This document shows positions 3,923 to 54,005 of a DNA stretch of 64,000 nucleotides, piece by piece. How positions within the stretch are numbered: the first letter of the stretch is position 1; every line of letters begins with the position of its first letter. Both the position numbers and the translations under genes were made by a program. Location of the stretch: NCBI GenBank assembly GCA_027490725.1, contig JAIXXN010000068.1, forward strand, positions 1 through 64,000, given 5' to 3'. The notes under the pieces were generated by a model. It did not search any database. It was not told where the DNA came from and saw only the letters and a program-made list of their open reading frames with translations. This DNA is from Oxalobacteraceae bacterium. GTDB lineage: Bacteria; Pseudomonadota; Gammaproteobacteria; Burkholderiales; Burkholderiaceae_D.

Positions 3923-4077
3923 GGTTTGCACAACTGGTCTGCTACTGGTAGTTAAATTAAGATAATTTTTATTGTCAGGATGGTTATTTCTATTGTTTTG
4001 GGGATATAATTATTCCAATGCAGTGCAGTTTTGACGGATTTCTCCCGATTTTCAATTTCAAATACCAATTACATACC

Positions 4078-35052: not shown

Positions 35053-36090
35053 TCAGCCTTGCTTCAACAGTGCGTTCAGGGTGCGCTTGCGCCAGAATTT
35101 GCGCAGTGAGATGCGCTTGCTGGTGGTGCTGAGTAGGCGATCGCGGTCGCTCAGCACCAGCTCGAGCTGGTCGATGCGGCCAGTGCGCAAGCCTTGCAGT
35201 AATGGCGCTAGCCATTGCTGCTCAATGGTATGCAGGCGATCGATCCAGACCGACCAGTCGCCCGCCTGCGCTGGCTGGATCAGGTCCGGCACGATCAGTG
35301 GCCGTGGCGCGGCCAGTAATTGCTGGGCGTCGGGCTGGCGCCAGCCCGGCTCGGTGAGTGCTTGCAGCCAGTCCGGGCCGCCGGCCACGGCCAGTGGCGG
35401 CAAGCTCTGTGGCAGGGCGCTGGCGCCCGCCCATAGCCAGCAGGCATTGATCACCGGCGCGCCGCGCGCTTCCCGCGCCTGATTGACGGGGTGCTCGTGC
35501 CAGGCCATCTGCACTTCGTTCTGCAGCCTGCGGCAGGCGCGCGCCGCATCGCCTTCCGGCATCCAGTCGCTGACATTCTGGGTGACCGCCGCATCGGGAC
35601 TGGCGGTATCCAGACTGGCCCACGCGTCGGCGCGCCAGAACCACAGATCCGCGCTGGCATACAGCAGTTCGCCGCCCAGTTGTTCGAAGCTGGGACGGGC
35701 GGCATCGAACAGCGCCCGCGATTCCTGCTCGCTGAGCGTCAGCGTGCGGGCATCGGCCAGCAGCAGATGGGTGCGCGCCAGTTGCAGATGGCTGGGCTGG
35801 ACGATGAACCAGTGACCCTGCCGGGCCGCGAGCGCGAGATTGCAACCCTGCATGGCGGCAGTCGCCAGTGGTACGCCGCCAGTATGGTCTGCAGCGGCGA
35901 GTTGCAGCGTCTGCGCCAGCCATGCTTCGTGGGGCAAGACCCGGCTCGGGCTTTCAAAAAGGGTGTATTGCAAACGTTTGTGGTGTGACAACAACGTGGC
36001 CAATGCCGGGGTGTCGAGCACGCGGATCAGGTCGCCTGCTAGCTCTGCGGGCGGTAAGGCGAAGGGGAGGACGACGGTTAGCTGGTTCAT
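35053..36090 (-). CDS. Conserved hypothetical protein upstream of recJ
   Basis: This protein of about 345 residues, rich in Leu, Ala and Trp, has no motif I recognise. It has no signal peptide and no membrane helix. Phrases such as DAARACRRLQNEVQMAWHEHPVN and INACWLWAGAS suggest a soluble enzyme or binding protein. It is probably co-transcribed with recJ (two-base gap), a linkage I recall in other betaproteobacteria. I place the start at ATG 36090 (MNQLTVVLP); ATG 36108 is the other candidate. Confidence 0.75.
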   Translation of the reverse strand: MNQLTVVLPFALPPAELAGDLIRVLDTPALATLLSHHKRLQYTLFESPSRVLPHEAWLAQTLQLAAADHTGGVPLATAAMQGCNLALAARQGHWFIVQPSHLQLARTHLLLADARTLTLSEQESRALFDAARPSFEQLGGELLYASADLWFWRADAWASLDTASPDAAVTQNVSDWMPEGDAARACRRLQNEVQMAWHEHPVNQAREARGAPVINACWLWAGASALPQSLPPLAVAGGPDWLQALTEPGWRQPDAQQLLAAPRPLIVPDLIQPAQAGDWSVWIDRLHTIEQQWLAPLLQGLRTGRIDQLELVLSDRDRLLSTTSKRISLRKFWRKRTLNALLKQG

Positions 36091-36180
36091 ACCGACATTG
36101 TAGGGCATCGCACAATAACGCGGAATGTTGCTTCTGAGAACATAGAAATGTTATAAAGAATCTTTCTTTAATTAAAATTC

Positions 36181-36208
36181 ATTGCATCTGAATAAATTTT
36201 GCTATAAT
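36181..36208 (+). promoter_or_regulatory. Candidate sigma-70 promoter for the SdrD-B repeat protein
   Basis: ATTGCA (or TTGCAT) and a perfect TATAAT at 36203-36208, 15-16 bases apart, in a strongly AT-rich stretch that contrasts with its neighbours. It would leave a leader of about 180 nt before the big gene, containing the short ORF at 36353. Confidence 0.5.
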
Positions 36209-36352
36209 TGCGACAACACAAATGTTTTTAAGGCATGACTTTAACCCAGTCAGCGCTTGATGCAAGTCACACCGGCCACTGATGACCCAGCCCCGTCACC
36301 AGCCTTACCGGCAAGTTCAATACATTTAAGAACAACTTTTTAAGACAAAAAA

Positions 36353-36400
36353 ATGACGAATTCCACTTTCAGCGGTAAGACGGTCGAGGTGCTGGTATGA
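36353..36400 (+). CDS. 15-codon ORF overlapping the start of the repeat protein
   Basis: ATG at 36353 begins a 15-residue peptide (MTNSTFSGKTVEVLV) whose TGA stop overlaps the ATG of the 2,066-residue gene (ATGA). The upstream ORF contains that gene's ribosome-binding site (GAGGTG). This geometry allows translational coupling. Whether the peptide is made is unknown; no strong ribosome-binding site precedes it, only an A-rich stretch with AAGAC. Confidence 0.35.
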   Translation: MTNSTFSGKTVEVLV

Positions 36401-39400
36401 GTAATCCCATCGTAAGAACCAGTGTTAACGTTTATGAAGATACGCAGAATACGTTTGAAATTCGCGATCTGCTGACTAAGGCCGGGTTTGATAGCAGCGC
36501 CAGCATTCACGTGAGCAGCATTCGCGTCACGCTACCGGACGGCAAAGTTACCACCATCAACAGCGATCTGTTCGGTATGGCCGATCAGGACACCATTTAT
36601 GTTCGCCCGGGTTTGTGGGCCAAGGACTGGTATGGCAAATTTACGACTGTAGAGGTGGTAGTTGACGATGGTAATGGTGGCGCTGGCGTTAATCTGAACC
36701 TGACAGTCAATGTCGATCCGGTCAATGATGCGCCGGTTGCTGCGGACAAGGTATTCGATCTGACCAATGGCGCTGCAGTGGTGCTGGCACGCGGTGACTT
36801 CGGCTTTGTTGACCCAGTCGAGAAAGACGCTTTTAAATCCGTCATCATTACCAAGCTGCCAAGTGCTGGTGAACTCTTGCTCAATGGTGTGGCGGTGACC
36901 GTCGATAGCGAAATATCGGTTGCCGATATCGACGCCGGTCATCTGACGTTCGTGCCGAGCCAGACCGAGGCCGGTAGTTTTAACGTTGACTTCAAGGTGC
37001 GCGATACCGGTGGCACTGTCGGTACGGGTGCCGCTGATACCAGTCTGGTCGCAAATCATCTGACCTTCAATGTGCCGCCGGCACATCTGGGCGATTTCGT
37101 CTGGGAAGATAGCAATGGCAACGGGGTACAGGATAGCGGCGAAGCCGGCCTGGCCGAGGTTGTCGTGCAACTCAAAGATGGCGCTGGCAAAGTGGTCGCA
37201 TCGACGACGACCGACGCGAGCGGCAAATATCACTTCGACGTCAATCCCGGCACCTATTCGGTGACCGTGCAGGCGCCGAACGGCTATGTTGCTACCACCA
37301 AGGCTCAGGGCGGCAATGACGCGCTCGATAGTGACATCGATGCGCAAGGTAATAGCGCTGCGATCACGCTGGCGCCGGGTGAAACCAGCAACAAGGCCGA
37401 TGCGGGTCTGTTCCGTCCAGTATCGCTGGGCAGCACCGTCTGGTACGACAGCAACCGTGATGGCATCCAGAACAATGGCGAAGCAGGCGCCGCTGGTGTG
37501 AAAGTCACCTTGCTCGACGCCAACGGCCAAACCACCGGCATTACCGCGACGACCGATGCGAACGGCCACTACCAGTTCAGTGGTCTGAAGCCAGGGAGCT
37601 ACAGCGTGCAGTTCGACAAGACCGCGCTGCCGGACTATCTGTTCACGGCACAGGGGCAGGGCAGCGATGCCGCCAAGGATTCCGACGTTGACGGGAATGG
37701 TCTGACCGCGCAAGTGACCCTCAACTCGGGTGACGCGGCCCAGCACCTCGACGCGGGTCTGGTGGTTCGTCAGGCGATCGTGGGCGACCGCGTGTGGGAA
37801 GATACCAACGGCAACGGCGTGCAGGATGGCGGCGAGCAGGGCGTGGACGGCGTGGTTGTCACGCTGAAAGACGCTAACGGTAAGGCCGTTAATACTGTCA
37901 CCACCCATGACGGTGGCCAGTACAGCTTCACGGTCGATCCGGGCGATTACACCGTCTCGGTGGCTCCGCCAAGTGGCTATGTCTTCACCGCCGCTGGCAA
38001 GGCAGGTGGTGCCATCAATAGTGATGTCAACGCCAGCGGCAATGCCAGCGTTTCGCTCGGCGCCGGTGAGGTCAATCTGGAAGTTGATGCCGGTATCTAT
38101 CGTCCAGCTTCGCTCAGCGAAATCGTGTGGATCGACACCAACCGTGATGGTCGTCTGAACAATGGCGAAATTGGTGCCGCCGGCATCAAAGTGACGCTGC
38201 TGGATGCCAGCGGTAATCCGGTGGCAGGCGCTTCGGCTGTCACTGACGCCAATGGTCACTATGAATTCAATGGCCTGGCACCCGGTGTGTACAGCGTGCA
38301 GTTCGATAAGACCACCTTGCCGGTTGGCTATAACTTCACTTCAGCAACCCAGGGCGCACCAGGCAGCGGTGGCTCCGATGCCGACACCGGTAGCGGAAAA
38401 ACCGGTCAGCTTACCCTGAACTCGGGCGACAATCTGACTGTGCGTGCCGGTCTGACCATCCAGCAGGCGACGCTGGGCGACCGCGTATGGGAAGATGCCA
38501 ATGGTAATGGCGTGCAGGATAGCGGCGAAGCCGGCCTGGATGGCGTGAGCGTGGAACTGAAAGATAGTCTGGGCAACACCGTTGCTTCGACCGTCAGCCA
38601 CGATGGTGGCCAGTACAGCTTTACCGTCGATCCGGGTACCTACTCGATCGCCGTGACGGCACCGACCGGCTACGGCATCACTGCCCAGACCCAGGGGAGC
38701 AACACCGCAGCCGACAGCGACATCAATGCTGCAGGTAAAAGCGGCAATGTGACGCTGGCCGCCGGTCAGTCGAACACGACGCTCGACGCTGGTCTGTATA
38801 AATTTGCCGAACTCGGCAACGTGGTCTGGAACGATGCCAACCGTAATGGCGTGCAGGATGCCGGCGAGACTGGCCGTGCCGATGTCAAGGTAACGCTGCT
38901 CGACGCAAGCGGCAAGGCGGTCGCCACGACCACCACCGACGTTGACGGTCATTACCTGTTTAACAATCTGAAACCGGGCACCTACAGCGTGCAGTTCGAT
39001 AAAGCCACGCTGGGCACTGGTTATGTGTTCACCGCCGCCCACACCGGCACCGACGGCAGCGTTGATTCCGATGCCGATCTGAGCACCGGCGTGACGCAGC
39101 AAGTCACCCTCGCCTCCGGCAGCGCCAACCACAGCCTCGATGCGGGCGTGGTTGCTCTGCAAGCCACCATTGGTGACCGTGTCTGGGAAGACAAGAACGG
39201 TAACGGCGTGCAGGATAGCGGCGAAGCGGGTCTGGTTGGCGTCAAGGTTGACCTGAAGGATGACCAGGGCAACCTCGTCAAGACCACCACCACCGGCGCC
39301 GATGGTAAGTACAGCTTTACCGTCGATGCTGGTAAATATGCGATTTCGGTCACGGCTCCGGTCGGTATGACAGCCAGCGCGGCCCATGCCGGCAGCAATG

Positions 39401-42400
39401 GCGCAGTCGATAGCGATATCGATGCCAACGGTCAGGGCGAGCTGATCACTGTAGCGCCGGGTCAAACCAATGTCGACGTCGATGCCGGCTTCTACAAAGG
39501 TGCTACCCTGGGCGATCGCGTCTGGCTCGACACCAATCGCAACGGTCTGCAAGATAGCGCCGAAGTGGGTGTGGAAGGTGTGAAAGTGATTCTGCTGGAT
39601 CAGGCTGGCAATCCGACCGGCGCGACGGCAACCACCGATGCCAACGGTAGCTACAGCTTCACCAATCTGAAGCCCGGCACTTACAGCGTGCAGTTCGACA
39701 AAGCCAGTCTGCCGACCAATTACATCTTCACGGCGGCCGATCAGGGCAGCAGCGACCTGAAGGATTCCGATGCCAACACCACCACCGGTAAGACCGCACA
39801 GGTGACGTTGACCTCGGGTCAGGTCTATAGCGATCTGGATGCCGGCGTCATGGCCATCCAGGCCAAACTGGGCGATACCGTATGGGAAGACAAGAATGGT
39901 AATGGCGTACAGGACAGCGGCGAGAGCGGCCTGTGCGGCGTAACCGTGCAACTCAAAGACGCCACCGGTAAAGTGGTTGCGACCACCAGCACCGATGCGG
40001 CCGGTCGCTACAGCTTCACCGCTGATCCGGGTAGTTACACGGTTTCCGTGACGGCGCCGAGTGGCTATAGCTTCACCACCAAGGATGCTGGCACGGACGA
40101 TGCCAAAGACAGCGATTTCGCTAGCAACGGTGTCAGCAATGTCGTCAAACTGGCCGCTGGTGAAGTCAATACCACCGTCGATGCCGGTCTGTATAAGGGG
40201 GCATCGCTGGGCAATCAGGTTTGGCTGGACAGCAATAAGAACGGTCTGCAGGATTGCGACGAATGCGGTGTGGCTGGCGTGAAAGTCATTCTGCTGGATG
40301 CTGATGGTAAGCAGGTTGGCAATGCTGTGACCACCGACTCCTATGGTAACTATCTGTTCAGCAACCTCAAGCCGGGCACTTACACCGTCCAGTTCGACAA
40401 GAGCAGCCTGCCAGAAGGTATGACCTTCACCAAGGCCAATCAGGGCTCGGACGACAGCATCGATTCGGACGTGAGCGCTAGCGGTCTGTCCCACAGCGTG
40501 ACGCTGACCTCCGGTCAGGTCAACAAGAGCATCGATGCCGGTGTAGTGGCGGCAGCCACCATTGGTGACAAGGTCTGGATCGATAAGAACGGTAACGGTT
40601 TGCAGGATGATGGCAGCGACAGCGGTAAATCTGGTGTGGTGGTCGAACTGCGCGATGCCAGCGGTAGCGTGGTAAAAACCACCACCACCGATAGCAACGG
40701 CAACTACAAGTTCGCGGTGGAAGCGGGTACCTATTCGGTCAGCGTGAAAGCGCCAACCGGCTACACCCTGACTAGCGCAGGCGTGGGCAGCGACCGTGCG
40801 CTCGATAGCGATGCGGATGCCAGCGGCAAGCTTGGTACCGTCTCGGTTGTCGCTGGTCAGAACGTCACCAATCTGGATGCTGGTCTGTATCAGAAAGCCA
40901 GCGTTGGCGACAAAGTCTGGTACGACACCAACGGTGACGGTATCCAGCAATCGTCGGAGTCGGGCGCCAGCAATGTAACCGTCTCGCTGCTAAACGAAAA
41001 AGGTGTGGTGGTCGCAACTGATGTGACCGATGCCAGCGGCGCCTATCTGTTCTCGGATCTGGGCCCGGGTAAATACTCGGTGAAATTTACCGCGCCAAGT
41101 GGCTATATGTTCACCAAGCAGGATCAGGGTAGCAGCGATAGTACTGACTCGGATGCGGCCGCGAATGGTCTGACCTCGCAGTTCAGCGTGGTATCCGGTG
41201 GCAAGGATCTGACCCGTGAAGCGGGTCTGGTCAAAGCGGGCAGCATCGGCAACCTGGTCTGGGAAGATAGCAACTACAACGGCGTTCAGGACAGCGGCGA
41301 AGCTGGTCTGGATGGCGTGACAGTCAAACTGTACGATGCGAATAACGTGCTGAAAGCCAGCACCGTCACCCATGACGGCGGTCAGTACCAGTTCACCGGT
41401 CTGGCAGCGGGTAGCTATCAGGTGGAAGTGACCAACAAGTCCGGTTACTACTTCACCAAGACGGGCGCCGGCACCACCAGCACCAATTCGGACATTACTA
41501 TCGTCAGTGGCAGCACCGGCCGGACCGACAGCATCGTGCTGGCCGCCGGTCAGGATGTCAGTTACAAGGATGCCGGCGTGTACCGTAAAGCCAGTATCGG
41601 TGACAAGGTCTGGCGCGATGCCAACCACAATGGCGTGCAGGATAGCGGTGAAGAGGGCATTGGCGGTATCAGCGTTGGGCTGTTCGATGCGGTGACCAAG
41701 AAACAGCTGGGTTCGACCATCAAGACCGATGCTAACGGCAATTACAAGTTTGTCGATCTGACTCCAGGTAGTTACTACCTGGTGTTCGACAAGACCAATG
41801 TGACGGTCAGCTTTGCTTCCGATCATGGTACTTACAACATGAGCAACTGGAAGTGGGGCGTGAAGAACTCCGGCACCAATGATGCGGTTGATTCGGATGT
41901 GACGGGCGATGCCAAAGATCTGAGCAACGTCACCCGTACCGATACCATCACGCTGACTTCGGGTAAAAACGATATGAGCTGGGATGCCAGCATCACCCCG
42001 ATCGCGATCGATCTGAACGGTGACGGTATCCAGACCATCGCGCGTGAAGCCATGACCGGTAGTTTCGACCTGCTGGGCACGGGTAAAGCCATTCAGACCG
42101 GCTGGTTGTCGGGCAGCGACGGCTTCCTGGCCATCGATGCTAACGGCAATGGCAGCATTGACGACATCAGCGAACTGTTTGGCGGTGTCAGCAAAGGCTC
42201 CGGTTTCGCCAAACTGGCAACCTATGACAGCAACCACGATGGCGTGGTCGATGCCAAGGATGCCCAGTTTGCCAGCCTGCTGGTCTGGCAGGACGCCAAC
42301 AGCAACGGCAAGACCGATGCGGGCGAATTACTGTCGCTGGAACAGGCCGGCGTCGTCAGCCTCAAGGTCAGCTACGTCGAACTGCCATTCGTGGATGCCA

Positions 42401-42597
42401 ACAATAACCTGCATCTGGAACGCAGCAGCGTGGTGATGAGCAACGGCCAGACGGCCGACATGACCGACGTCTACTTCAACGTGGCCCGCGAAGATGCGCA
42501 AGCGGCGGGCCTGGTAGCGCCGACCATTGCTGACCTGATTGGCGACGCAAGCTTCGCCACGCTGGTCGGTCAGTGCCAGATTCCTGCACAAGCTTAA
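36397..42597 (+). CDS. Giant SdrD-B-repeat surface protein
   Basis: This 2,066-residue protein has four parts. Residues ~1-110 are a beta-rich unit ending in the cadherin-like VNDAPV motif. Residues ~115-225 form another Ig/cadherin-like module. From ~230 to ~1865 there are 14 SdrD-B (Cna-B-like) repeats, each opening with a form of LGDRVWEDxNGNGVQDSGEAG, a calcium-binding-type loop. The C-terminal ~200 residues carry four DxNGDG-like loops. There is no N-terminal signal peptide, no LPxTG, no PEP-CTERM and no RTX nonapeptide, so a C-terminal type I secretion signal is the best guess. GAGGTG precedes the ATG. A role as adhesin or stalk is inferred from family. The only cysteines are three in repeats 9-10 and one near the C-terminus. 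Confidence 0.85.
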   Translation: MSNPIVRTSVNVYEDTQNTFEIRDLLTKAGFDSSASIHVSSIRVTLPDGKVTTINSDLFGMADQDTIYVRPGLWAKDWYGKFTTVEVVVDDGNGGAGVNLNLTVNVDPVNDAPVAADKVFDLTNGAAVVLARGDFGFVDPVEKDAFKSVIITKLPSAGELLLNGVAVTVDSEISVADIDAGHLTFVPSQTEAGSFNVDFKVRDTGGTVGTGAADTSLVANHLTFNVPPAHLGDFVWEDSNGNGVQDSGEAGLAEVVVQLKDGAGKVVASTTTDASGKYHFDVNPGTYSVTVQAPNGYVATTKAQGGNDALDSDIDAQGNSAAITLAPGETSNKADAGLFRPVSLGSTVWYDSNRDGIQNNGEAGAAGVKVTLLDANGQTTGITATTDANGHYQFSGLKPGSYSVQFDKTALPDYLFTAQGQGSDAAKDSDVDGNGLTAQVTLNSGDAAQHLDAGLVVRQAIVGDRVWEDTNGNGVQDGGEQGVDGVVVTLKDANGKAVNTVTTHDGGQYSFTVDPGDYTVSVAPPSGYVFTAAGKAGGAINSDVNASGNASVSLGAGEVNLEVDAGIYRPASLSEIVWIDTNRDGRLNNGEIGAAGIKVTLLDASGNPVAGASAVTDANGHYEFNGLAPGVYSVQFDKTTLPVGYNFTSATQGAPGSGGSDADTGSGKTGQLTLNSGDNLTVRAGLTIQQATLGDRVWEDANGNGVQDSGEAGLDGVSVELKDSLGNTVASTVSHDGGQYSFTVDPGTYSIAVTAPTGYGITAQTQGSNTAADSDINAAGKSGNVTLAAGQSNTTLDAGLYKFAELGNVVWNDANRNGVQDAGETGRADVKVTLLDASGKAVATTTTDVDGHYLFNNLKPGTYSVQFDKATLGTGYVFTAAHTGTDGSVDSDADLSTGVTQQVTLASGSANHSLDAGVVALQATIGDRVWEDKNGNGVQDSGEAGLVGVKVDLKDDQGNLVKTTTTGADGKYSFTVDAGKYAISVTAPVGMTASAAHAGSNGAVDSDIDANGQGELITVAPGQTNVDVDAGFYKGATLGDRVWLDTNRNGLQDSAEVGVEGVKVILLDQAGNPTGATATTDANGSYSFTNLKPGTYSVQFDKASLPTNYIFTAADQGSSDLKDSDANTTTGKTAQVTLTSGQVYSDLDAGVMAIQAKLGDTVWEDKNGNGVQDSGESGLCGVTVQLKDATGKVVATTSTDAAGRYSFTADPGSYTVSVTAPSGYSFTTKDAGTDDAKDSDFASNGVSNVVKLAAGEVNTTVDAGLYKGASLGNQVWLDSNKNGLQDCDECGVAGVKVILLDADGKQVGNAVTTDSYGNYLFSNLKPGTYTVQFDKSSLPEGMTFTKANQGSDDSIDSDVSASGLSHSVTLTSGQVNKSIDAGVVAAATIGDKVWIDKNGNGLQDDGSDSGKSGVVVELRDASGSVVKTTTTDSNGNYKFAVEAGTYSVSVKAPTGYTLTSAGVGSDRALDSDADASGKLGTVSVVAGQNVTNLDAGLYQKASVGDKVWYDTNGDGIQQSSESGASNVTVSLLNEKGVVVATDVTDASGAYLFSDLGPGKYSVKFTAPSGYMFTKQDQGSSDSTDSDAAANGLTSQFSVVSGGKDLTREAGLVKAGSIGNLVWEDSNYNGVQDSGEAGLDGVTVKLYDANNVLKASTVTHDGGQYQFTGLAAGSYQVEVTNKSGYYFTKTGAGTTSTNSDITIVSGSTGRTDSIVLAAGQDVSYKDAGVYRKASIGDKVWRDANHNGVQDSGEEGIGGISVGLFDAVTKKQLGSTIKTDANGNYKFVDLTPGSYYLVFDKTNVTVSFASDHGTYNMSNWKWGVKNSGTNDAVDSDVTGDAKDLSNVTRTDTITLTSGKNDMSWDASITPIAIDLNGDGIQTIAREAMTGSFDLLGTGKAIQTGWLSGSDGFLAIDANGNGSIDDISELFGGVSKGSGFAKLATYDSNHDGVVDAKDAQFASLLVWQDANSNGKTDAGELLSLEQAGVVSLKVSYVELPFVDANNNLHLERSSVVMSNGQTADMTDVYFNVAREDAQAAGLVAPTIADLIGDASFATLVGQCQIPAQA
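37084..41990 (+). repeat. Fourteen coding repeats of ~345 bp in an alternating A-B pattern
   Basis: Repeats begin near 37084, 37426, 37768, 38113, 38467, 38812, 39160, 39508, 39859, 40204, 40552, 40900, 41242 and 41596. Odd repeats (A) carry a VxLKD...YSFTVDPGTYSVSVTAPSGY core; even repeats (B) carry VKVTLLDASG...LKPGTYSVQFDK. The true period is therefore an A-B pair of about 690 bp, pointing to growth by duplication of pairs. Confidence 0.85.
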
Positions 42598-42639
42598 GAA
42601 ATTTTGTTAAAATATCCTTTAGACAAGAAAGATTACATT

Positions 42640-43341
42640 ATGAAAACTACCTTCAACAAAGTAATGCAAGCCGCCGTAGCCGCAACCGTTCTGACTTTTG
42701 CTGGCGCCAGCCACGCTGCAGATACCTTTAGCCTGGCAAATACCTCGAGCAGCGAGATCTACGTCAACTCGGCCACCAGCGGTTTCTTTAAAGATGTCAG
42801 CATCGATGACAACACCCTGCAGATCAGCGTCTCGGTCTTCGAGATGGTCAATACCGGCAAGACCTCGGAGCGTTACTATGCTTACTGCATCGCCCCGATG
42901 ATCGATTTCTCGAGTAAGGCTACTTACACTGCCACGTATAACTTCACGCCATCGGACGACGTACGCAAGCTCTACGAGTCGTCCTTCGCTGCGACTGCCG
43001 GTAACACCGACAAACAGCTGGCATTCCAGCTGGCACTGTGGGAACTGCAGAATGATGACAAGAATCTGACCTCTGGTAACCAGTACTTCGCGCTGCATGA
43101 TGCCGCGAATCCGCAGATCGATATGGCTGCCGATATGCTGGCCGCTGCGGCTTCGTATCAGCTGGGTACCAACCACTACAACTATGTCACTTTGGAAGGT
43201 TCCTTCAATGGCAAGCAATCCCAGCAGCTGCTGGGCGTGTCCGCCGTACCGGAAGCCGACACCTGGGCCATGATGGCACTGGGTCTGGGCCTGCTGGGTG
43301 TGGTTGGCCGTCGCAAGCCAAAGAACGAAAAATTCGCTTAA
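42640..43341 (+). CDS. PEP-CTERM protein with thioester-domain motifs
   Basis: This 233-residue exported protein has a signal peptide (cleavage near SHA|ADTFS) and a C-terminal PEP-CTERM signal (VPEADTW, hydrophobic helix, GRRKPK). The domain between carries YCI (Cys83) and, 47 residues later, QLALW (Gln130). These match the Cys and Gln motifs of Gram-positive thioester adhesin domains, in which the two side chains form an internal thioester that bonds covalently to a surface. Start ATG 42640 puts the signal peptide first; the frame opens at 42604. It lies 42 bases after the repeat protein and may be in the same transcript, with a strong terminator behind it. Confidence 0.8.
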   Translation: MKTTFNKVMQAAVAATVLTFAGASHAADTFSLANTSSSEIYVNSATSGFFKDVSIDDNTLQISVSVFEMVNTGKTSERYYAYCIAPMIDFSSKATYTATYNFTPSDDVRKLYESSFAATAGNTDKQLAFQLALWELQNDDKNLTSGNQYFALHDAANPQIDMAADMLAAAASYQLGTNHYNYVTLEGSFNGKQSQQLLGVSAVPEADTWAMMALGLGLLGVVGRRKPKNEKFA

Positions 43342-43361
43342 TTCCCTAGGGAATAGCGTCC

Positions 43362-43401
43362 ACCGCGCCGTCGCAGAGCTTCTGCACGGCGCGGTTTTTT
43401 T
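43362..43401 (+). terminator. Rho-independent terminator ending the surface-protein unit
   Basis: ACCGCGCCGT pairs with ACGGCGCGGT across a 14-base loop, followed by seven T. It lies 20 bases after the PEP-CTERM stop codon. Confidence 0.9.
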
Positions 43402-43485
43402 ATGGGCGCACGCCAAGCTGTGCCCGCATGAGTGCCAAGTTATGGCACACTGCGGGCTCACCAATGTCTAGCTTCACCGGAGCCC

Positions 43486-44751
43486 ATGAGTCTTATGCAG
43501 AATTTGCCCTTTGAATGGCTGGTCGGCCTGCGCTATACGCGTGCTGGCAAGCGCAGCGGGCGTAATAGTTTTATCTCGTTTATTTCCCTGATTTCCATGG
43601 CGGGTATCGGCCTCGGAGTGGCCGCACTGATCGTGGTGCTGTCGGTCATGAACGGTTTCCAGAAAGAAGTTACCGACCGCATGCTGTCCGTACTGGCCCA
43701 CGTCGAAGTGTTCGACGCCCGTGGCAGCATGCCGGACTGGCATGCCGCCGCCGCCGAAGCACGCCGTAACCCCGAGGTGATCGGTGCCGCACCGTTTGCC
43801 GAAACCCAGGGCATGCTGGTGCGCGACGACGTGCTGCGCCCCTCGATTATCCGCGGCGTCCTGCCCGAGCAGGAGCCGAACGTGTCCGACGTGGCGAAAC
43901 AGACCCGGCGCGGCAGTTTCAATGCGCTGCAGCCGGGTAGTTACAACATCGTGCTGGGGATCGAACTGGCGCGGGCCCTGCGCGTCAATCTGGGCGAGAA
44001 GGTCACACTGGCGCTGGCGCAGGGACAGCCGACACCGGCCGGGGTATTGCCGCGGGTGCGCTCGTTCACGGTGGTGGGGATTTTCGAAGCCGGGCATAAC
44101 GAGTTCGACTCGGCACTGGCCTTTGTCCACCTGACCGATGCCGAAAAGCTGTTGCGCCTCGATGCGCCGGCCGGCCTGCGTTTGCGTCTGAGCGATATGC
44201 ACCGTGCCCCGCAAGTAGCCCAGGCACTCAAAAACAGCATGTCCGGTGACCTGATCATGCGTGACTGGTCCAAGCTCAATGCCAACTGGTTCGCTGCCGT
44301 ACAGACGGAAAAGCGCATGATGTTCATCATCCTGACGCTGATCATCGCCGTGGCAGCCTTCAATCTGGTGTCGACACTGGTGATGACGGTGACAGAAAAG
44401 CAGGCCGATATCGCCATCCTGCGCACGCTGGGGGCTTCGCCCCGGTCGATCATGAAGATTTTCATGATACAGGGCGCGCTGGTCGGCATTCTCGGCACGG
44501 CGATCGGCATCGGTCTAGGCGTGCTGGTGGCCCTGAATATCGACGTGATCGTACCGTTTATCGAACATCTCCTGGGAGTGCAGTTCTTGTCGAAGGATAT
44601 TTATTACATCAGTACCGTGCCATCCGATCTGCGCTGGCCTGACGTCTTCAAGATTGGCGGCGTCGCCGTCGTGCTGGCCTTTGTGGCAACCCTGTACCCG
44701 AGCTGGTGGGCAGCCCGCGTAAAACCTGCGGAGGCACTGCGCTATGAGTAA
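43486..44751 (+). CDS. lolC: Lipoprotein-releasing system permease, LolC/LolE family
   Basis: This permease of about 421 residues extracts outer-membrane lipoproteins from the inner membrane and passes them to LolA. It has an N-terminal membrane helix ([24 protein letters not shown]), a large periplasmic domain (residues ~50-265) and three C-terminal helices with the MacB/FtsX-type segment. [19 protein letters not shown] is a Lol signature. Only one permease gene is present beside lolD, so it may form a homodimer (LolF-like) unless a partner lies elsewhere. ATG 43486 has GGAG upstream. The gene overlaps lolD by eight bases. Confidence 0.9.
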
Positions 44752-46536: not shown

Positions 46537-47331
46537 ATGCGCCGTGTCAGCCTCGGCTTTGTGGCCGGCGTGGTCCTGCTGCAGCAACAGGCGCTGCTGC
46601 CGGACTGGCAGCAGCTGCTACCCATACTCTTGCTTCTACTAGCGTTTCTGTCGGTGTTGGTGGCACTGGGGCAGATGTTGCTGCGCCGCTCAGCTTCCAG
46701 CGCCTTCACCGCAGGCCGCCTGAACACGCGCTGGCGGGCATTTGCCGGATCATTGCTGCTGGTCGGTGGCGCCGCTCTGGTCGGCTTCTGCTGGGCGGCC
46801 TTGCTGGCCCAGATGGCCTTAGGCAGCGAATTGCACCGGTTCGATGAGGGACGCACCTTGCAGGTTGTCGGCCTGGTCGAGAGCCTGCCTAGTCAGTCGG
46901 AGCAGGGAGTGCGTTTCAATTTCCGCATCGAACAGGTTCTGGCTGGTACGCTCCAGCCGGTGCCGCAGCACCTTGCGCTGGGCTGGTACAGCAATCCGGG
47001 CAAGCCCGCGCAAGCGTCCACCTTAATTCAGCCTGGGCAGCGCTGGCGCCTGAGTCTGCGCTTGCAGCGCCCGCATGGCAACGCCAATCCCTACGGTTTC
47101 GACTACGAGGTATGGCTGCTCGAGCAGGGCATCCGGGCCACCGGCTATGTGTACAATGCCGGTGACAACCAGCTGCTCGCGCCGTTTGTGTCCTGCTTCG
47201 CCTGCGTGATCGAAGCGGCGCGTGCTAGCTTGCGCCTGCGTATTCAGACGCTGCTGGCAGGGCGTCGCTACGCGGGCGTGATCGTCGCGCTGGTGCTGGG
47301 CGATCAGCGTGGCATCAGTCATGGGAGGTGA
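46537..47331 (+). pseudogene. comEC: comEC 5' fragment, interrupted by the Tn7-like element
   Basis: ComEC is the inner-membrane channel for DNA uptake in natural transformation, usually about 750-850 residues. Here about 264 codons remain: N-terminal membrane helices, then the DUF4131 OB-like domain (residues ~95-215, TLQVVGLVESLP, NPYGFDYEVWLLEQGIRATGYV), up to the start of the competence domain at LVLGDQRGIS. At 47329 the frame enters transposon sequence, whose first three bases TGA are its stop. The 3' part should be found beyond the right end of the element, outside this window. Natural competence is probably lost, unless a second copy exists. Confidence 0.9.
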
Positions 47332-47822: not shown

Positions 47823-48854
47823 TCACTCGCTGAGTGTCGGCTCAACATCAGCGACTTTCATCGTGGTTGCCCCTCTGCTCTCTTCGATGAAGAGCAGGAT
47901 TTCTTCGAGGACACCATGTTTCGTTAGGGCTCGGTGCAAAGCTATGACCATGTCTATTGAGACGCCGCTGTGCGCCACATTTTTCCAAGCAGTTTCCTGG
48001 GCAAGTTTTCCTAGAATCGTGTCCAGCCGAGCGCGCGATGCTGGACTGGCTAACAGTGTGCTGCCTGTGTCGAATAGCTTGTAGATGTGTTCCCATTCCG
48101 CATCGGTCAATCTTGTGCTGCCGTTATCATGCCGCGCCACTTCGCATCCATGGCCTCGAAACTTTTGCATAACGAACCTAGCTGTAGCGGGTACCCCAGC
48201 GATAGGCGTCTCCTGGGGAGTTAGACTCATCAACCGGCATCTTGTTACGAAAAAGCTGTCGCGCATTGGCATACCTGTGACTTCAACGTAAGCGGTGGCC
48301 TTTGGTAGCGTAATGTCCAAGCGACCTTGCAAGCCAAATCGGTGAATGCTTCCCGCCATTTGGTGCGCTGTAGGGTACGCGAGCATCCACGAGAGTCTTT
48401 GGTCAACGGCCTCCCTAGCTCGCTGGTCTACCGGCTGTGCTCTACCGATGACCAGGCGCAACGCGGGAGGTGTGCTGTCAAAATCCAGGTAGCATATTCG
48501 CTCCAGTGCCTGAGGACGGAACATTTCAGCGAGTAAGTGTCGGGATGGTCCGAAGAAGGTGCGCATCAATGCTAACGCTGGAACGAGGTAGTCCCGACCC
48601 TTGATAGTCCACTTGTAGAGACTGTGCTTCGACCAAAGCTCATTCGGAATTGCTAGCAGTTGGCCCATGTCTTCGGGGAATTCGCTAGTGGATGAACCTT
48701 CGTCCAATTGAATGCGTATTGTGTGCTGCTCTTTATCGATGCGAGAGAGCCCACGGTCGTGCAGCCGGGCCAGGTCCAACAGCGTAGATTCTCCGTTGCC
48801 ATCTTCAATAGTAGCTGTGCCACCGAACAAATCCACGCTTGTTGCCCACTCCAT
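47823..48854 (-). CDS. Transposon protein of unknown function, in the position of tnsE
   Basis: This 343-residue soluble protein has no motif I recognise with confidence. GGAGG stands four bases before the ATG. It lies after tniQ on the same strand, just inside the left end, where Tn7 carries tnsE, the selector for replicating DNA in conjugal plasmids. A middle part rich in beta-strand-forming residues (ITLPKATAYVEVTGMPMRDSFF) precedes a helical C-terminal part (residues ~235-335, EWEHIYKLFDTGSTLL, VIALHRALTKHGVLEEILLF). It could be a TnsE-like target selector, a regulator or cargo. The 163-bp gap to tniQ suggests its own promoter. Confidence 0.75.
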   Translation of the reverse strand: MEWATSVDLFGGTATIEDGNGESTLLDLARLHDRGLSRIDKEQHTIRIQLDEGSSTSEFPEDMGQLLAIPNELWSKHSLYKWTIKGRDYLVPALALMRTFFGPSRHLLAEMFRPQALERICYLDFDSTPPALRLVIGRAQPVDQRAREAVDQRLSWMLAYPTAHQMAGSIHRFGLQGRLDITLPKATAYVEVTGMPMRDSFFVTRCRLMSLTPQETPIAGVPATARFVMQKFRGHGCEVARHDNGSTRLTDAEWEHIYKLFDTGSTLLASPASRARLDTILGKLAQETAWKNVAHSGVSIDMVIALHRALTKHGVLEEILLFIEESRGATTMKVADVEPTLSE

Positions 48855-48871
48855 GTTGCCTCCATGCTGAC

Positions 48872-48886
48872 TAAGTTATGCTAACT
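48872..48886. promoter_or_regulatory. Inverted repeat upstream of the tnsE-position gene
   Basis: AAGTTA-TGC-TAACTT, a perfect 6-bp inverted repeat 18 bases before the start codon, fits a repressor site. Confidence 0.4.
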
Positions 48887-49017
48887 TGAAATATCTAGAA
48901 TCCAGATTCTCAGCTCTTTCGTGGTGTAGCTCCACACATCGACGGAACATCTGTCCTGGTCGTTCGTACGTTTAGAGGGTGCCCGCCGGCGCCACGTGAC
49001 CAGGTGAGAGGAAAAGG

Positions 49018-50223
49018 CTAAGTCTTTTGCACATCCTTTTTTGGTTTTAATCCGAATTTTGTCGGGAAGCGCTCGCGCCAGATGGCTCTGCCGCCTAACT
49101 GTCGCACTGCTAGTTCGCTGCGTTTGAACTCGGCCAGGAATTGCTCGGTGAGTGGAAAAAATTTACGATGGTGGCGGTAGCTTTGCCATGCGCGGGCTTT
49201 CGTCATCATTTCCTTGACTGTACATCGCTCTCCCATCAAATCGAGTTTGAGCGCGATATCGCACAGCGCTTCGACAATCTGTTGGTCCAAGACGGAGAAC
49301 TCCGGTAGCCGCGGACCTGGCCTTTGGTACAGCTCAAGCTTACAGATTTTCACCGTCGACCCATGGTGAAGGAACGTGCGCATCATTATGTGCTTCGGCG
49401 CCGCGAATTGCAGGGATACGTTGTGACGCAACATCAACGCTGGCCATTGGCGCTTTGGCAATCCTCTCACAAGGCAACCGGCATTTCGCAGGTATTGCTC
49501 GCCAAAAAATCTCGAGAGCTCGTTGGAGAATACGGCCGTCGCTAAATCAGTCGTTGTTAGCCCAAATCCTTTTTTCCATGCATCCGCCCGGTAGTCGTAT
49601 GACGATTTAAGGATATGTCCACGTCCAGTTAGGGCGGCATGTGATAGGTTGGCGACGCACATTAGTGCATCATCGGCGACCGGGGCGAGTTCATGGAATC
49701 CCGACGATGGCAGTGCGAGATGGTCTCTAATTCGCACCTTTCCACTTAGGGGTATGTTTGTCGCGATGACCCGGCACCGATGCACAGAGCAGGTCAGAAC
49801 TCCAGGTAAGTGATGCAGGCGGTGCCAATAGGCTTCGCCATAAACTTGCAAATCCGACGATACGCACAGGGGACAAAAGCGGCGTTCCATAACTCCATGG
49901 GTTACGACTTTCGTGATAGAGCCGATGCTAGAGCGCATAGAAGCGCTTGAGATGAATTTTTCACGGAGCCTCATCTGCTGTTCAGGCGGCATGAACGCGA
50001 CGCAGTAGGGAAAAATTGTGTGCGCAGATAAGTACACCTCCGGGTCAAGGCCCATCGCGGCCGCTATACGAGTTACGTTTTGACCTAGCAGGAGCGAGAT
50101 ACTTTTCTTACGGACTCCAAGCGTATTTTTGAGCAAGGTCTCCAGTGGAACGCCCATGCGCGCGCTAGCTCTCGCCCATACGCTTCCGGCGAGTTCATCT
50201 GGATAAGGTTTCGGCAGCTGCAT
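49018..50223 (-). CDS. tniQ: TniQ/TnsD-family target-site selector
   Basis: TniQ-family proteins link TnsC to a chosen DNA site; in Tn7, TnsD binds the 3' end of glmS. This protein has 401 residues (Tn7 TnsD has about 508). The N-terminal TniQ domain shows the zinc-binding set Cys117, Cys120, Cys145 and His148 in CPLC...GEAYWHRLHHLPGVLTC. The C-terminal ~230 residues would bind DNA and define the site, here presumably comEC coding sequence. It follows tnsC by four bases. TnsD rather than short CRISPR-type TniQ is favoured by the extra C-terminal domain and the absence of Cas genes. Confidence 0.92.
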   Translation of the reverse strand: MQLPKPYPDELAGSVWARASARMGVPLETLLKNTLGVRKKSISLLLGQNVTRIAAAMGLDPEVYLSAHTIFPYCVAFMPPEQQMRLREKFISSASMRSSIGSITKVVTHGVMERRFCPLCVSSDLQVYGEAYWHRLHHLPGVLTCSVHRCRVIATNIPLSGKVRIRDHLALPSSGFHELAPVADDALMCVANLSHAALTGRGHILKSSYDYRADAWKKGFGLTTTDLATAVFSNELSRFFGEQYLRNAGCLVRGLPKRQWPALMLRHNVSLQFAAPKHIMMRTFLHHGSTVKICKLELYQRPGPRLPEFSVLDQQIVEALCDIALKLDLMGERCTVKEMMTKARAWQSYRHHRKFFPLTEQFLAEFKRSELAVRQLGGRAIWRERFPTKFGLKPKKDVQKT

Positions 50224-50227
50224 GCGC

Positions 50228-51871
50228 TTAGATTTCCACGAGTGAATGGAGCGGTAGAAGCATACCCAGCTCCTTCAATTGGGCTACGACTGGCGTGTTG
50301 GCTGAGCCAGCCAGCGCCGTCGCCCGTCGATAGTCCATCGGACGGCTTTCGAAGTCGAGCGCTAACGCTTCTGGGTCTGGGGCTACTGTCCGCGCTTTGC
50401 GAAGAGTCTTCACTGGTGCCATACGCTTGATTGCAGTTTGAACACCTTGTGCCAATGTGGTCGTGCTTTCGCTTTCGGAGATGTCGATTGCTGCCGACAC
50501 AGCTTCTTCTTCGCCGAAGCCGGCAGCTACAAGTGCAGTCGCAAGTTGAGGTGCGAACTCCTTATCTTGCGATTTGATGGCGTACGCTTTGGCCAGTGCG
50601 ACGTCGGCCTGCCGTGCATAGGTATTGAGCATTTCACTGACGCTTGAGGGCGCGATATCTTCGAAATGCATCAGTGCGCCGAGGTCATTTGTACGCAGTG
50701 CGTCAATCATCGGATGTAGGAGGAGCATCTCCTTCTCATAGACATACGCAAGGAGACGGGCAGTTATAGTCTCGCTACCATCAAGAATGGCCTTAGCTTG
50801 AGCGGAGGCGAAGAGTTTAATGGCCAAGTCGATGATGCCTTGGCTACAGTGATACATCGTTGCGGCTAGCTGGGCATCGAGTTTGACTGGATTCTTCGTC
50901 CACTGAAAAGTCCAAAGAACTCTCAGGAACTGGCTCCATTCACCGACCTCGCCCTCAGCGACAGTCTCGGGCAGCCTGTTCCATTCAGAGATGCCATGGC
51001 CGCTAGCTCGCCTGGACTTGCGGAAGTCCAGACTAAAAACCTGCGCGGCTTTATTGGTGCCGATGAAAAGTAGGGGGACGCCAAGGTCGTTGCAGGCGGA
51101 GACCAGTTCGGTCATCACTGTCTGAGACGACTTCTTTGAATTGGTCAGATTTTGTATCTCGTCGGCTATCAGGAATCCGACGCAATGCGCATTTAGGACA
51201 CGCGCTACGCTGCGCATAAGTGTATCGGCACCAGCTCTGCCGCGTTGGGTGTAAGTGTCGTAGTAGTTCGCGCCCGGGATAAGTTGGTCGAGTTGGTGCA
51301 AGATACCTGCAGCTAGTCCTTTAATACTTGACCCGTCGCTCGGCATCTCGACGTGCAAACGAGTGACTTGATAAAGATTGAATTTCTGGTGATAGATAAC
51401 TTTTGGAATCTTCGAGAAGAACCTCTTTACCACTGAGGTCTTGCCCATTCCGGACACGCCCATGAGCAGTGATGACAACTGTGGCGTTGCCCCTGCAGCT
51501 GTTGGAAGATAAGAGGCACTCCCATTGACTAGAGGATAGTCAGCTCGAAATTTGCTCGCGTGGCCCGGCGTGAATGGAACGCGCCCAACATAGCCGTTAC
51601 GCAGCATTGAATCAAGCGACCGGGCGAGTTCAACATGGCGAGCGAAGGGCACCATGAAGTTGCTTAAGGTACCGAGCATTTGAATTCGCTCATGCGTGTT
51701 CCATTCGCGCTGGCCTACATCAAAAGCAGGGCGCAGCATTAGCGCGTCCCTGAGTTCGTCATCCGAGAACGATTGAGGCAGTGCCTCGATGAGCGGGTTG
51801 CCCTGGAAGTGCGGCAGTCGCTGAGGTGTATACTGGACGTTAGCCAGATTGATGTCTTCGAGTTGGTACAT
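50228..51871 (-). CDS. tnsC: TnsC AAA+ ATPase, transposition regulator
   Basis: TnsC is the ATP-dependent match-maker between target selector and transposase. In this 547-residue protein, Walker A is GVSGMGKTS (residues 138-146) and Walker B is FLIADEIQN (Asp237, Glu238), followed by LLFIGTNKA (sensor 1) at about residue 278. The N-terminal ~130 residues carry DNA/TnsD-contact regions and the C-terminal ~150 residues the TnsAB-contact region, by analogy with Tn7. The start lies one base after the tnsB stop on the minus strand. Confidence 0.95.
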   Translation of the reverse strand: MYQLEDINLANVQYTPQRLPHFQGNPLIEALPQSFSDDELRDALMLRPAFDVGQREWNTHERIQMLGTLSNFMVPFARHVELARSLDSMLRNGYVGRVPFTPGHASKFRADYPLVNGSASYLPTAAGATPQLSSLLMGVSGMGKTSVVKRFFSKIPKVIYHQKFNLYQVTRLHVEMPSDGSSIKGLAAGILHQLDQLIPGANYYDTYTQRGRAGADTLMRSVARVLNAHCVGFLIADEIQNLTNSKKSSQTVMTELVSACNDLGVPLLFIGTNKAAQVFSLDFRKSRRASGHGISEWNRLPETVAEGEVGEWSQFLRVLWTFQWTKNPVKLDAQLAATMYHCSQGIIDLAIKLFASAQAKAILDGSETITARLLAYVYEKEMLLLHPMIDALRTNDLGALMHFEDIAPSSVSEMLNTYARQADVALAKAYAIKSQDKEFAPQLATALVAAGFGEEEAVSAAIDISESESTTTLAQGVQTAIKRMAPVKTLRKARTVAPDPEALALDFESRPMDYRRATALAGSANTPVVAQLKELGMLLPLHSLVEI

Positions 51872-51872
51872 G

Positions 51873-54005
51873 TCACCCTTTCATCATGCTTTCCTGAGCT
51901 CTACGTACCATTTCTTCAATGCTGGAGCGCGGCTTCGGAGCTGGAGTCGATGCGTCAGGTTCTGCTGCCTTGACGGAGGTTGCTGGGGCCTTAATTGGAA
52001 ATGGAACTACATTATCGCCTTGCGAGTCGGTCGTCCGCACCGGGGTCGAGGGAGTGAGTGCGTTACGCTCCGCGGTCAGCTCTTTCGCACGTACTCCTTT
52101 AATGGAGGCTTTGCGCGACGTACGAGATTTCTTGACTCCAGCTTCCGTTAGGCGCTTCTTTGCATTGTCCTGAATTTCTTTGACGGTTAAGTTGTAGTCG
52201 ACCTGCACTTGGTCGCGTACGTGCTGAATGTCGTGCTTCATTGACTTTTCGACTGCTTGGAGCGTAAGCACTTCCGCCAGTGAAAGACCTCTGAAGCGCT
52301 CGCTTGCGCTGGTGAGATTGCATTCGAAAACCAGCCCTTTGTTATCTGGGTGGTGCATGTGAATAGTGTCGACCAGGCGTGAGTCGAAGGTCACTTTTAC
52401 TGGTATAGCCCCCTTGCTTCCGGCCTTAACGAACAAGCCGAGTGCGATGGCGTCTCTACACGCGTAGTAGCACCCCCTGAACGATAGTCCTGTTTGGGTA
52501 ATTGTCCCCGTTTCAGTCGGGAGCAACGACATGCGGACGAACTCCTCGGTATACCTGCTTGCGATGCCCGAGCGATTTGCTATATCGTGGTTCCATATAT
52601 TGATTGGGGTGGGCATCATCCCCGTGGCCAACTCGCCGGGACCCCACGCATAATTTTTCATAGGTGTACGGTTGTGCGCGATGATTAGGTTGAGGAAGAT
52701 TGCGATGAACTCCTTCAGCGTCAGGCAAGCCTCTCGCTCCGCAACTCCGTTGTTATTCCTTCGCTGCTTCGCATCCTCTGGGACAACAAAACCGTAAACT
52801 CCTCCTTGTAGCTTCTGCCGTAGAAATTTAAAACGCGATTCGACGATTGGCTTCCAGTCGGCGCGCAATGCCGGAGGGTTGGCAACGGTGACCGCCATAT
52901 TTTCTGCCAGGCGATTGCTCGCATATGTGAAACCCTCGCCGTGGTCGAACAGCATTTGGCTTGGGAACACTTCGTGCGCCGGCCAGTCGGTCGCTTCGTA
53001 CTTGACTCCATAGGTTTCGCAGAGCACCTGCTTGTCTTGCGCGATGGAGAACGCGGCCTGCATGGCGCAAACCCAACTGGCGTTTTCAAAACCGGCATAG
53101 AACCCCACAATCAGGCGAGAACGTCTGTCCACGATGAAGTAGATGGTCGGTTTTCCCACGATAAGAGACCGGTCAGATTCGGACACCAGCAGGACATCGC
53201 CGACAGTTGCATCACATTCGTAGTAATGAGCTACGCCAACGCAGTCGTCCATCACGGAGCCCAGCACGGCTCGGTGGTCACGGTTAAAGTTCGCGCTGCC
53301 TTTGCGATTTCGAAGCTGCGTCTCCAACGAATAATGCTTATGCAGGAAGTGCCTCAGCTGTCTGATGGTTGGGCGTTCACCAAATGCAAACAGAGTCGAG
53401 CTATCGGTGCTTTCTGCGTGATTGAAGTGCTTCTCAACCATGTTGATGTACACAACTTCGATGGTTGACCGTCTGTCTTTAAAGTACGCTTCTATGGCTT
53501 CCCTAAAATACCCATGGTCTCGCTCTGTCAATTGGTAAATGCCGTAGGAAGTCTTTCGCCCACGTCCTTCCGTGAGCGAGCTTTTTTTGCCGCATCTATT
53601 GAATTTCGCGAGTAGTCCGCTAGGAACCTGTCCGCCTACCCAGAAGCGTCGCAGATTCTTGTAAATTGCCTTACGTGAATATCCCGTGGATACGGAGCGA
53701 GCTGCAATCAGCTTGCTTCGAATCGACGCATTAAAGATGTCGGGAACTTGGTTCGGAAGTTCGCCAATTATGGCCATCGCTCTGGCCTGCGAAAGGAGCA
53801 TTGCCTCGGTTGGTGGCCGCTCGACTTGGGGCGTTTGAGTTGGAGTCGCCGGCTCGAGTGCCACGAGCATTTTGGGGCTTACCGAAACGGGGAACCCTTT
53901 TTCGGCGTCCATGGCAATCGCCCATGCCACTTGTGCGACCGCGTCTGAGTAAAGCAAACGATAACGTTCGTCTTCATGCATAAAAATGTCGTTGCGAAAG
54001 AGCAT
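51873..54005 (-). CDS. tnsB: TnsB transposase (DDE, Mu/retroviral integrase type)
   Basis: This 710-residue protein binds the end repeats and joins the 3' ends to target DNA. The catalytic triad is visible: Asp in YECDAT (~264), Asp in LFDHGEG (~353) and Glu in PIVESRF (~388). The last two are 34 residues apart, as in Tn7 TnsB. N-terminal helix-turn-helix domains for end binding and a C-terminal Ser/Pro/Lys-rich tail for TnsC contact are present. It overlaps tnsA by one base. Confidence 0.96.
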   Translation of the reverse strand: MLFRNDIFMHEDERYRLLYSDAVAQVAWAIAMDAEKGFPVSVSPKMLVALEPATPTQTPQVERPPTEAMLLSQARAMAIIGELPNQVPDIFNASIRSKLIAARSVSTGYSRKAIYKNLRRFWVGGQVPSGLLAKFNRCGKKSSLTEGRGRKTSYGIYQLTERDHGYFREAIEAYFKDRRSTIEVVYINMVEKHFNHAESTDSSTLFAFGERPTIRQLRHFLHKHYSLETQLRNRKGSANFNRDHRAVLGSVMDDCVGVAHYYECDATVGDVLLVSESDRSLIVGKPTIYFIVDRRSRLIVGFYAGFENASWVCAMQAAFSIAQDKQVLCETYGVKYEATDWPAHEVFPSQMLFDHGEGFTYASNRLAENMAVTVANPPALRADWKPIVESRFKFLRQKLQGGVYGFVVPEDAKQRRNNNGVAEREACLTLKEFIAIFLNLIIAHNRTPMKNYAWGPGELATGMMPTPINIWNHDIANRSGIASRYTEEFVRMSLLPTETGTITQTGLSFRGCYYACRDAIALGLFVKAGSKGAIPVKVTFDSRLVDTIHMHHPDNKGLVFECNLTSASERFRGLSLAEVLTLQAVEKSMKHDIQHVRDQVQVDYNLTVKEIQDNAKKRLTEAGVKKSRTSRKASIKGVRAKELTAERNALTPSTPVRTTDSQGDNVVPFPIKAPATSVKAAEPDASTPAPKPRSSIEEMVRRAQESMMKG

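Follow-up and report, generated by a model that had tools for sequence, protein, structure and literature searches.

The analysed window, a stretch of 64,000 nucleotides (positions 1 to 64,000 of contig JAIXXN010000068.1, assembly GCA_027490725.1) from an Oxalobacteraceae bacterium, contained an ORF encoding a 233-aa protein with a C-terminal PEP-CTERM tail. The ORF was preceded by a gene for a large SdrD-B repeat protein and followed by a strong intrinsic terminator. The coordinates of the features are collected in Table 1.

Table 1. Features of the thioester domain (TED) locus and of the Tn7-like genes in the same window
Feature	Position (nt)	Strand	Basis
SdrD-B fibre gene, repeat protein of 2066 aa with 14 SdrD_B stretches	36397..42597	+	Pfam
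TED PEP-CTERM gene, product of 233 aa	42640..43341	+	ORF list and translation
Sec-type signal peptide, residues 1-26	42640..42717	+	assigned by eye
Predicted thioester domain (TED), residues 27-202	42718..43245	+	AlphaFold model, fold matches, Pfam TED match below the cut-off (residues 81-168)
Cys83, putative thioester Cys closing the predicted strand 78-83	42886..42888	+	alignments, model, alignment to the SaTIE chain
Gln130 (QxALW motif), predicted helix 123-137; structural, unlikely bond partner	43027..43029	+	alignments, model, published TEDs
Gln195, putative thioester Gln within the predicted strand 192-202	43222..43224	+	alignments, model, fold matches
PEP-CTERM sorting tail, residues 202-226	43243..43317	+	PF07589 above cut-off
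Strong intrinsic terminator 3' of the TED gene	43362..43401	+	RNA fold -29.8 kcal/mol, z -5.2
TniQ-like gene	49018-50223	-	Tn7-like set
TniB-like gene	50228-51871	-	Tn7-like set
TnsA-like gene	54005-54856	-	Tn7-like set

The original prediction had described the ORF as a PEP-CTERM protein with YC at residue 83 and QxALW at Gln130. This description was confirmed by the translation and by Pfam, and both motifs were found, the sequence around the second one being FQLALW. The tail scored 30.9 bits against a Pfam cut-off of 20.7, and one exosortase match was recorded in the genome (C67:29731-30501), hence the protein was assigned to the exosortase substrates. The same genome encoded 49 PEP-CTERM tails (E<=0.01). 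Cys83 was the only Cys of the protein, and Gln195 was located 9 residues ahead of the PEP motif. The predicted TED took up nearly the whole mature protein, with almost no spacer ahead of the tail.

The protein was also compared with named PEP-CTERM families. The FxDxF PEP-CTERM model NF038126 matched residues 90-226 with 54.9 bits (cut-off 50). No match at E<=0.01 was left after removal of the tail, so the score leaned on the tail, and the name FxDxF describes a motif, not a mechanism. Likewise, no NCBIfam match at E<=0.01 was obtained for 21 tail-less members of the protein family. A PEP-CTERM tail was shared with the flocculation protein PepA (NF033554), although the score of the protein, 32.5 bits, fell short of the cut-off of 80. 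PepA was above its cut-off in 12 of 61 genomes, and seven of the twelve loci (L029-L040) were read in frame (L031, L032, L033, L034, L036, L037 and L039). None of the seven had the set of Cys, QxALW and late Gln, and two were without any Cys. A link to PepA was rejected on these grounds.

Other genes of the window were noted in passing. A second PEP-CTERM protein was encoded at 4018-5061 and carried an ice-binding-like adhesive domain (pAdhesive_15). A set of minus-strand genes for Tn7-like transposition adjoined a 264-aa ORF with DUF4131 only (46537-47331 and 47823-54856), and a 710-aa ORF between the Tn7-like genes gave no Pfam match at E<=0.001. In three relatives (L009, L013 and L018) ORFs of 813-835 aa stood in place of the 264-aa ORF. 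The Tn7-like genes were likely inserted into the DUF4131 gene.

Predicted fold and sequence profiles

The protein was aligned with ten homologues from named Oxalobacteraceae genomes, and an AlphaFold model of it was predicted. The mean pLDDT was moderate (70.4) and the pTM was 0.70, the confidence being lowest at the two ends, signal peptide and tail. Several strands were predicted first, followed by the strand 78-83 with Cys83 at its end, the strand 95-100, the helices 106-119, 123-137 and 158-172, and finally the strands 180-189 and 192-202. In a Foldseek search with this model, rows 1-10 were all chains of TED proteins (E values from 3.5e-4 to 0.016, best probability 1.00). VIA gave Z scores of 8.4-11.5 for ten PDB entries of TED proteins, with an rmsd of 3.4-4.2 over 136-156 aligned residues, and the next row had a Z of 2.9.

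A second model, that of the homologue L013, which naturally lacks Gln130, reached a pLDDT of 86.9. The ten best VIA entries had Z scores of 9.3-10.8 and the next row 3.9; nine of them were TED, TIE or Cpa entries, and the remaining one was the streptococcal adhesin FNE, the title of which names no TED. Here VIA re-aligned the 683 chains that Foldseek itself had returned and ranked the TED entries first. In the Foldseek output for this model, no TED was present among the 50 matches listed, and no match was found at E<=0.001.

The predicted fold matched that of the solved TEDs of PF08341 (CpTIE-TED 5A0G, SaTIE-TED 6FX6, BaTIE 6FWV, PnTIE 5A0N and Cpa 2XID). A strand bearing the Cys, three helices and a final hairpin bearing the Gln were common to both, as were the YC motif, the QxxPhiW helix, the late Gln and the single Cys. 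Unlike the solved TEDs, the protein ended in a PEP-CTERM tail instead of LPXTG, belonged to a Gram-negative host and consisted of little more than the domain in its mature form. According to excerpts of PMC6194298, Class I TEDs are marked by helix alpha0 and Class II TEDs by a beta-sandwich insert. Neither element was seen in the secondary structure of the model.

The sequence profiles pointed in the same direction at lower scores. Pfam TED (PF08341) matched residues 81-168, beginning 2 residues ahead of Cys83. The E value was 0.0043, and the score of 17.9 bits fell short of the cut-off, which is 22. Removal of the signal peptide and tail raised the score to 18.7 bits, still below the cut-off. 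Among 21 diverse members of the family, 18 were matched at E<=1, the best at 1.4e-5. When the PDB sequences were searched with the family profile (E<=10), the only match was SaTIE-TED at E 0.47, and the single sequence of the protein gave no match there. In the 74 genomes of the genus, PF08341 was matched at E<=1 in 16, the own genome included, and above the cut-off in 8, again counting the own genome. All eight were relatives of the protein, while three of the weakest among the 16 (L062-L064, E 0.2-0.55) looked unrelated. Thus, the assumption of a thioester domain fold with a PEP-CTERM tail was supported by the structure prediction, Foldseek and VIA, with PF08341 remaining below its cut-off, and the reading of the protein as a signal peptide, a predicted TED fold and a PEP-CTERM tail held.

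The cysteine and its predicted glutamine partner

Excerpts of PMC4450167 and PMC6194298 describe the TED thioester as a bond between the Cys of [YFL]C and a Gln that a late strand contributes within a weak PhiQzPhiPhi motif. The Gln of the TQxxPhiW motif is located on helix alpha2 in the solved TEDs, where it hydrogen-bonds the backbone of the Cys; it is reported there as not essential for the thioester and not the bond partner. In the model, YC83 was placed on the predicted strand 78-83 and Q195 on the predicted last strand 192-202. FQLALW was on the predicted second helix 123-137, with Phe replacing Thr. The weak PhiQzPhiPhi motif was recognized only in part, as Ser rather than a hydrophobic residue precedes Q195.

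Conservation was followed in several alignments. When the protein was aligned with ten homologues of 33-65% identity from other members of the Oxalobacteraceae, C83, F129, A132 and W134 were invariant, so the motifs noticed originally were not due to chance. With 17 members aligned over the domain alone, the invariant columns were C83, L111, F129, A132, W134 and Q195; in the 21-member set A3, where the mean column identity was 28%, they were C83, F129, A132, W134 and Q195. The A3 profile was then applied to the retrieved loci and gave 116 domain rows that comprised 62 distinct strings, near-identical sequences of one genus being counted separately. C83, Q130, W134 and Q195 were all present in 58 of the 62, and F129, A132 and W134 in every one. 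Both C83 and Q195 were kept in 61 domains, lost together in the 62nd and counted among the six most conserved positions, their conservation being somewhat favoured by source profiles that had been built from members with Cys and Gln.

The single domain without the pair was L087, a paralogue from the same genome (contig 9: 6735-7205), in which Cys was replaced by Ser and Gln195 by Ala, with Q130 and W134 retained. Out of four relatives with which it was compared, L074 came closest (75% identity). L087 had no SdrD-B gene upstream and would represent a natural inactive control for the predicted thioester residues.

The original prediction had paired Cys83 with Gln130. A thioester between these two residues was considered extremely improbable, even though Gln130 was kept in 59 of the 62 domains. 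In the other three it was Ala, with Cys and Gln195 retained, and it was also present in the paralogue that lacks the Cys. Together with the published role of the TQxxPhiW Gln, the three domains led to rejection of the Cys83-Gln130 pair. Gln130 corresponds to that helix Gln, and the equally conserved Gln195 had been overlooked. A large distance between Cys83 and Gln130, which had been named as the result that would speak against the thioester, concerned the wrong residue, since Gln130 is not the bond partner. Gln195 is most likely the partner of Cys83 in the predicted thioester.

The position of Gln195 was compared with the solved structures by the end points of the VIA alignments. Residue 203 of the model fell on 275 of 5a0g chain B, 204 on 276 of 5a0d and 203 on 255 of 5a0n. 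Assuming that the last 7-9 aligned residues were ungapped, Q195 would correspond to residues 267, 267 and 247, respectively, and the thioester glutamines given in PMC4450167 are Gln267 for CpTIE and Gln247 for PnTIE. Gln188 of the L013 model fell on the same CpTIE and PnTIE numbers. For SfbI (5a0l), residue 262 was obtained by this register versus the published 261. The Cys was located through the alignment of the profile with the PDB sequence of SaTIE (E 0.47), in which Cys83 was on position 47 of the chain. The SaTIE construct comprises 249 residues and starts at Gln254 (PMC6194298); the chain has 253 residues, and position 47 would therefore be the published Cys296. By the same offset, the end points on 6fx6 for both models put the late Gln on position 218, equal to the published Gln467, all of these registers being inferences from end points and numbering rather than from a residue-level structural alignment.

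It was also considered that the single Cys might have another role in the envelope, such as an intermolecular disulfide or the binding of a metal or cofactor, as a lone exported Cys is able to form intermolecular disulfides. Exactly one Cys was found in 61 of the 62 matched domains and none in the paralogue, so that a disulfide within the domain is excluded. The Cys was conserved, and lost, jointly with a Gln, and only TED proteins stood far above the other rows in the fold matches. Such a role was judged very unlikely.

An alternative that seemed unlikely rather than negligible was that the TED fold is real in an ordinary envelope or matrix protein, Cys and Gln being kept for packing with no relevant thioester. 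The paralogue L087, in which the signature is otherwise intact although Cys and Gln are gone, is consistent with a domain that can persist without the chemistry. Against packing, however, Cys83 and Gln195 belonged to the best conserved positions and were invariant at a mean column identity as low as that of set A3, the only loss removed both residues at once, and the corresponding residues form the bond in Gram-positive TEDs, as described in parts of PMC4450167.

The SdrD-B gene pair and its distribution

The start codon of the TED gene was 42 nt past the stop codon of the SdrD-B ORF. A pattern scan listed no terminator in this gap, though the same scan also missed the terminator at the 3' end of the TED gene, and a promoter scan of 36000-44000 found 4 promoters versus 4.1 expected, so that these promoters were left out of account. 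No signal peptide was seen by eye in the SdrD-B protein, and no PEP-CTERM tail was among the Pfam matches listed for it. The PF17210 repeats of this neighbour were a likeness to staphylococcal SdrD and SdrC, but the NCBIfam SdrD and SdrC models matched it far below their cut-offs. In contrast to the staphylococcal proteins, its C-terminal region (DLNGDGI...) resembled that of many large proteins of the bacterial family. This region (41956-42594) was found at up to 53% identity in many large ORFs of the family and is possibly a shared secretion module.

The neighbouring SdrD-B gene proved to be a conserved partner. In each of the named relatives L009-L018, ten in total, it preceded the TED gene at a distance of 29-86 nt. 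An SdrD-B tail gene, defined as lying on the same strand less than 500 nt ahead with the C-terminal region at >=65% identity, was just upstream of 53 of the 62 distinct domains. It was absent ahead of nine domains, eight of them distant types and the ninth the paralogue devoid of Cys. In the reverse direction, 24 of the 245 family genomes carried the C-terminal region (>=65% identity), at 25 places in all, and a TED gene lay behind 21 of these 25 tail genes. In three cases from one genus (L116, L119 and L120) another gene was downstream, and at L121 no TED was found in the 1.4 kb behind the tail gene. Hence, neither part was obligatory, as four of the 25 SdrD-B tail genes were TED-less and 31 of the 74 genus genomes gave no match to the TED protein at all.

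Profile A2, by which those 31 genomes were negative, matched the other 43 at E<=1e-6; in the family, it matched 21 of 245 genomes at E<=0.001, and these fell into 5 of the 44 genera. In the phylum-wide samples, profile A3 matched 7 of 398 genomes at E<=0.001, the own genome included, one of them weakly (G470, E 4.4e-4). PF08341 at E<=0.01 matched 5 of the 398, also including the own genome, and one of these (G550/L091) looked unlike a TED. A protein of the L060 type was present in 5 of the 398. These samples show that the protein type is uncommon outside its home family. Some distant members (L092 and L094-L096) ended in VPLPA- or VPVPA-type tails, a kind named VPLPA-CTERM.

The TIE proteins of Gram-positive bacteria combine a TED, a stalk of isopeptide or ester type and a sortase anchor in a single polypeptide. 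The 233-aa protein did not have this composition, and the likeness was the association of a TED with a long stalk of Ig-like repeats. Unlike in TIE proteins, head and stalk are encoded by two adjacent genes here; the stalk belongs to the SdrD_B type, and no sorting signal was seen in it. Single-chain arrangements were recorded as well. In another family of the phylum, SdrD_B, Big_9 and TED were found in one chain (L171 3427-6258, minus strand) that ran off the contig end, with five SdrD_B stretches and a TED of 22.5 bits against the cut-off of 22. Within the same class as the window, a single chain (L170 1772-7750, minus strand) joined a TED of 50.3 bits to DUF11 repeats and also had an isopeptide-type domain and a hydrophobic stretch at the C-terminus. 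Judged by its sequence, L170 appears to be a TIE-like adhesin outside Gram-positives. This is in line with the occurrence of DUF11 in Gram-negative adhesins described in parts of a 2025 survey of isopeptide domains (PMC12617251). TED and stalk thus occur fused as well as split.

Parts of a 2015 survey (PMC4450167) place putative TEDs exclusively in Gram-positive bacteria. In the open-licence literature of PubMed Central, no exosortase-tailed TED was among the matches listed.

Proposed mode of action

Given the computed fold, the joint conservation of Cys and Gln, the sorting tail and the pairing of the two genes, we consider it probable that the protein is a TED with a Cys83-Gln195 thioester, which would fix a target covalently while being presented by the exosortase system and working together with the SdrD-B fibre. 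After Sec export and folding of the TED, Cys83 at the end of its strand and Gln195 on the last strand would form the thioester spontaneously with loss of ammonia. Processing of the tail by exosortase would then hold the TED at the cell envelope or at its polysaccharide. On meeting the right amine or hydroxyl, the thioester would transfer Gln195 onto the target, resulting in a covalent link. With the giant SdrD-B fibre encoded upstream, which the TED would have to meet, the pair may be a counterpart of the Gram-positive TIE adhesin in which head and stalk are divided between two genes. The TED itself cannot reach far, because the sorting tail follows almost directly after the domain.

It was also conceivable, though we regard it as doubtful, that the exosortase-processed TED acts as a chemical clamp. 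Its thioester would capture the SdrD-B fibre, secreted separately, or the exopolysaccharide, and a fibre in which no anchor is visible would be fastened to the cell. If this were true, the TED would serve self-assembly, not host binding, and would be of a type without the marks of either described class.

Returning to the preferred reading of covalent target capture, a TED carried by the exosortase system would show that thioester chemistry operates also at a two-membrane envelope. It would supply a testable mechanism for a member of the PEP-CTERM proteins, many of which have no known function, and it would offer a natural system in which a reactive head and a long fibre are separate proteins.
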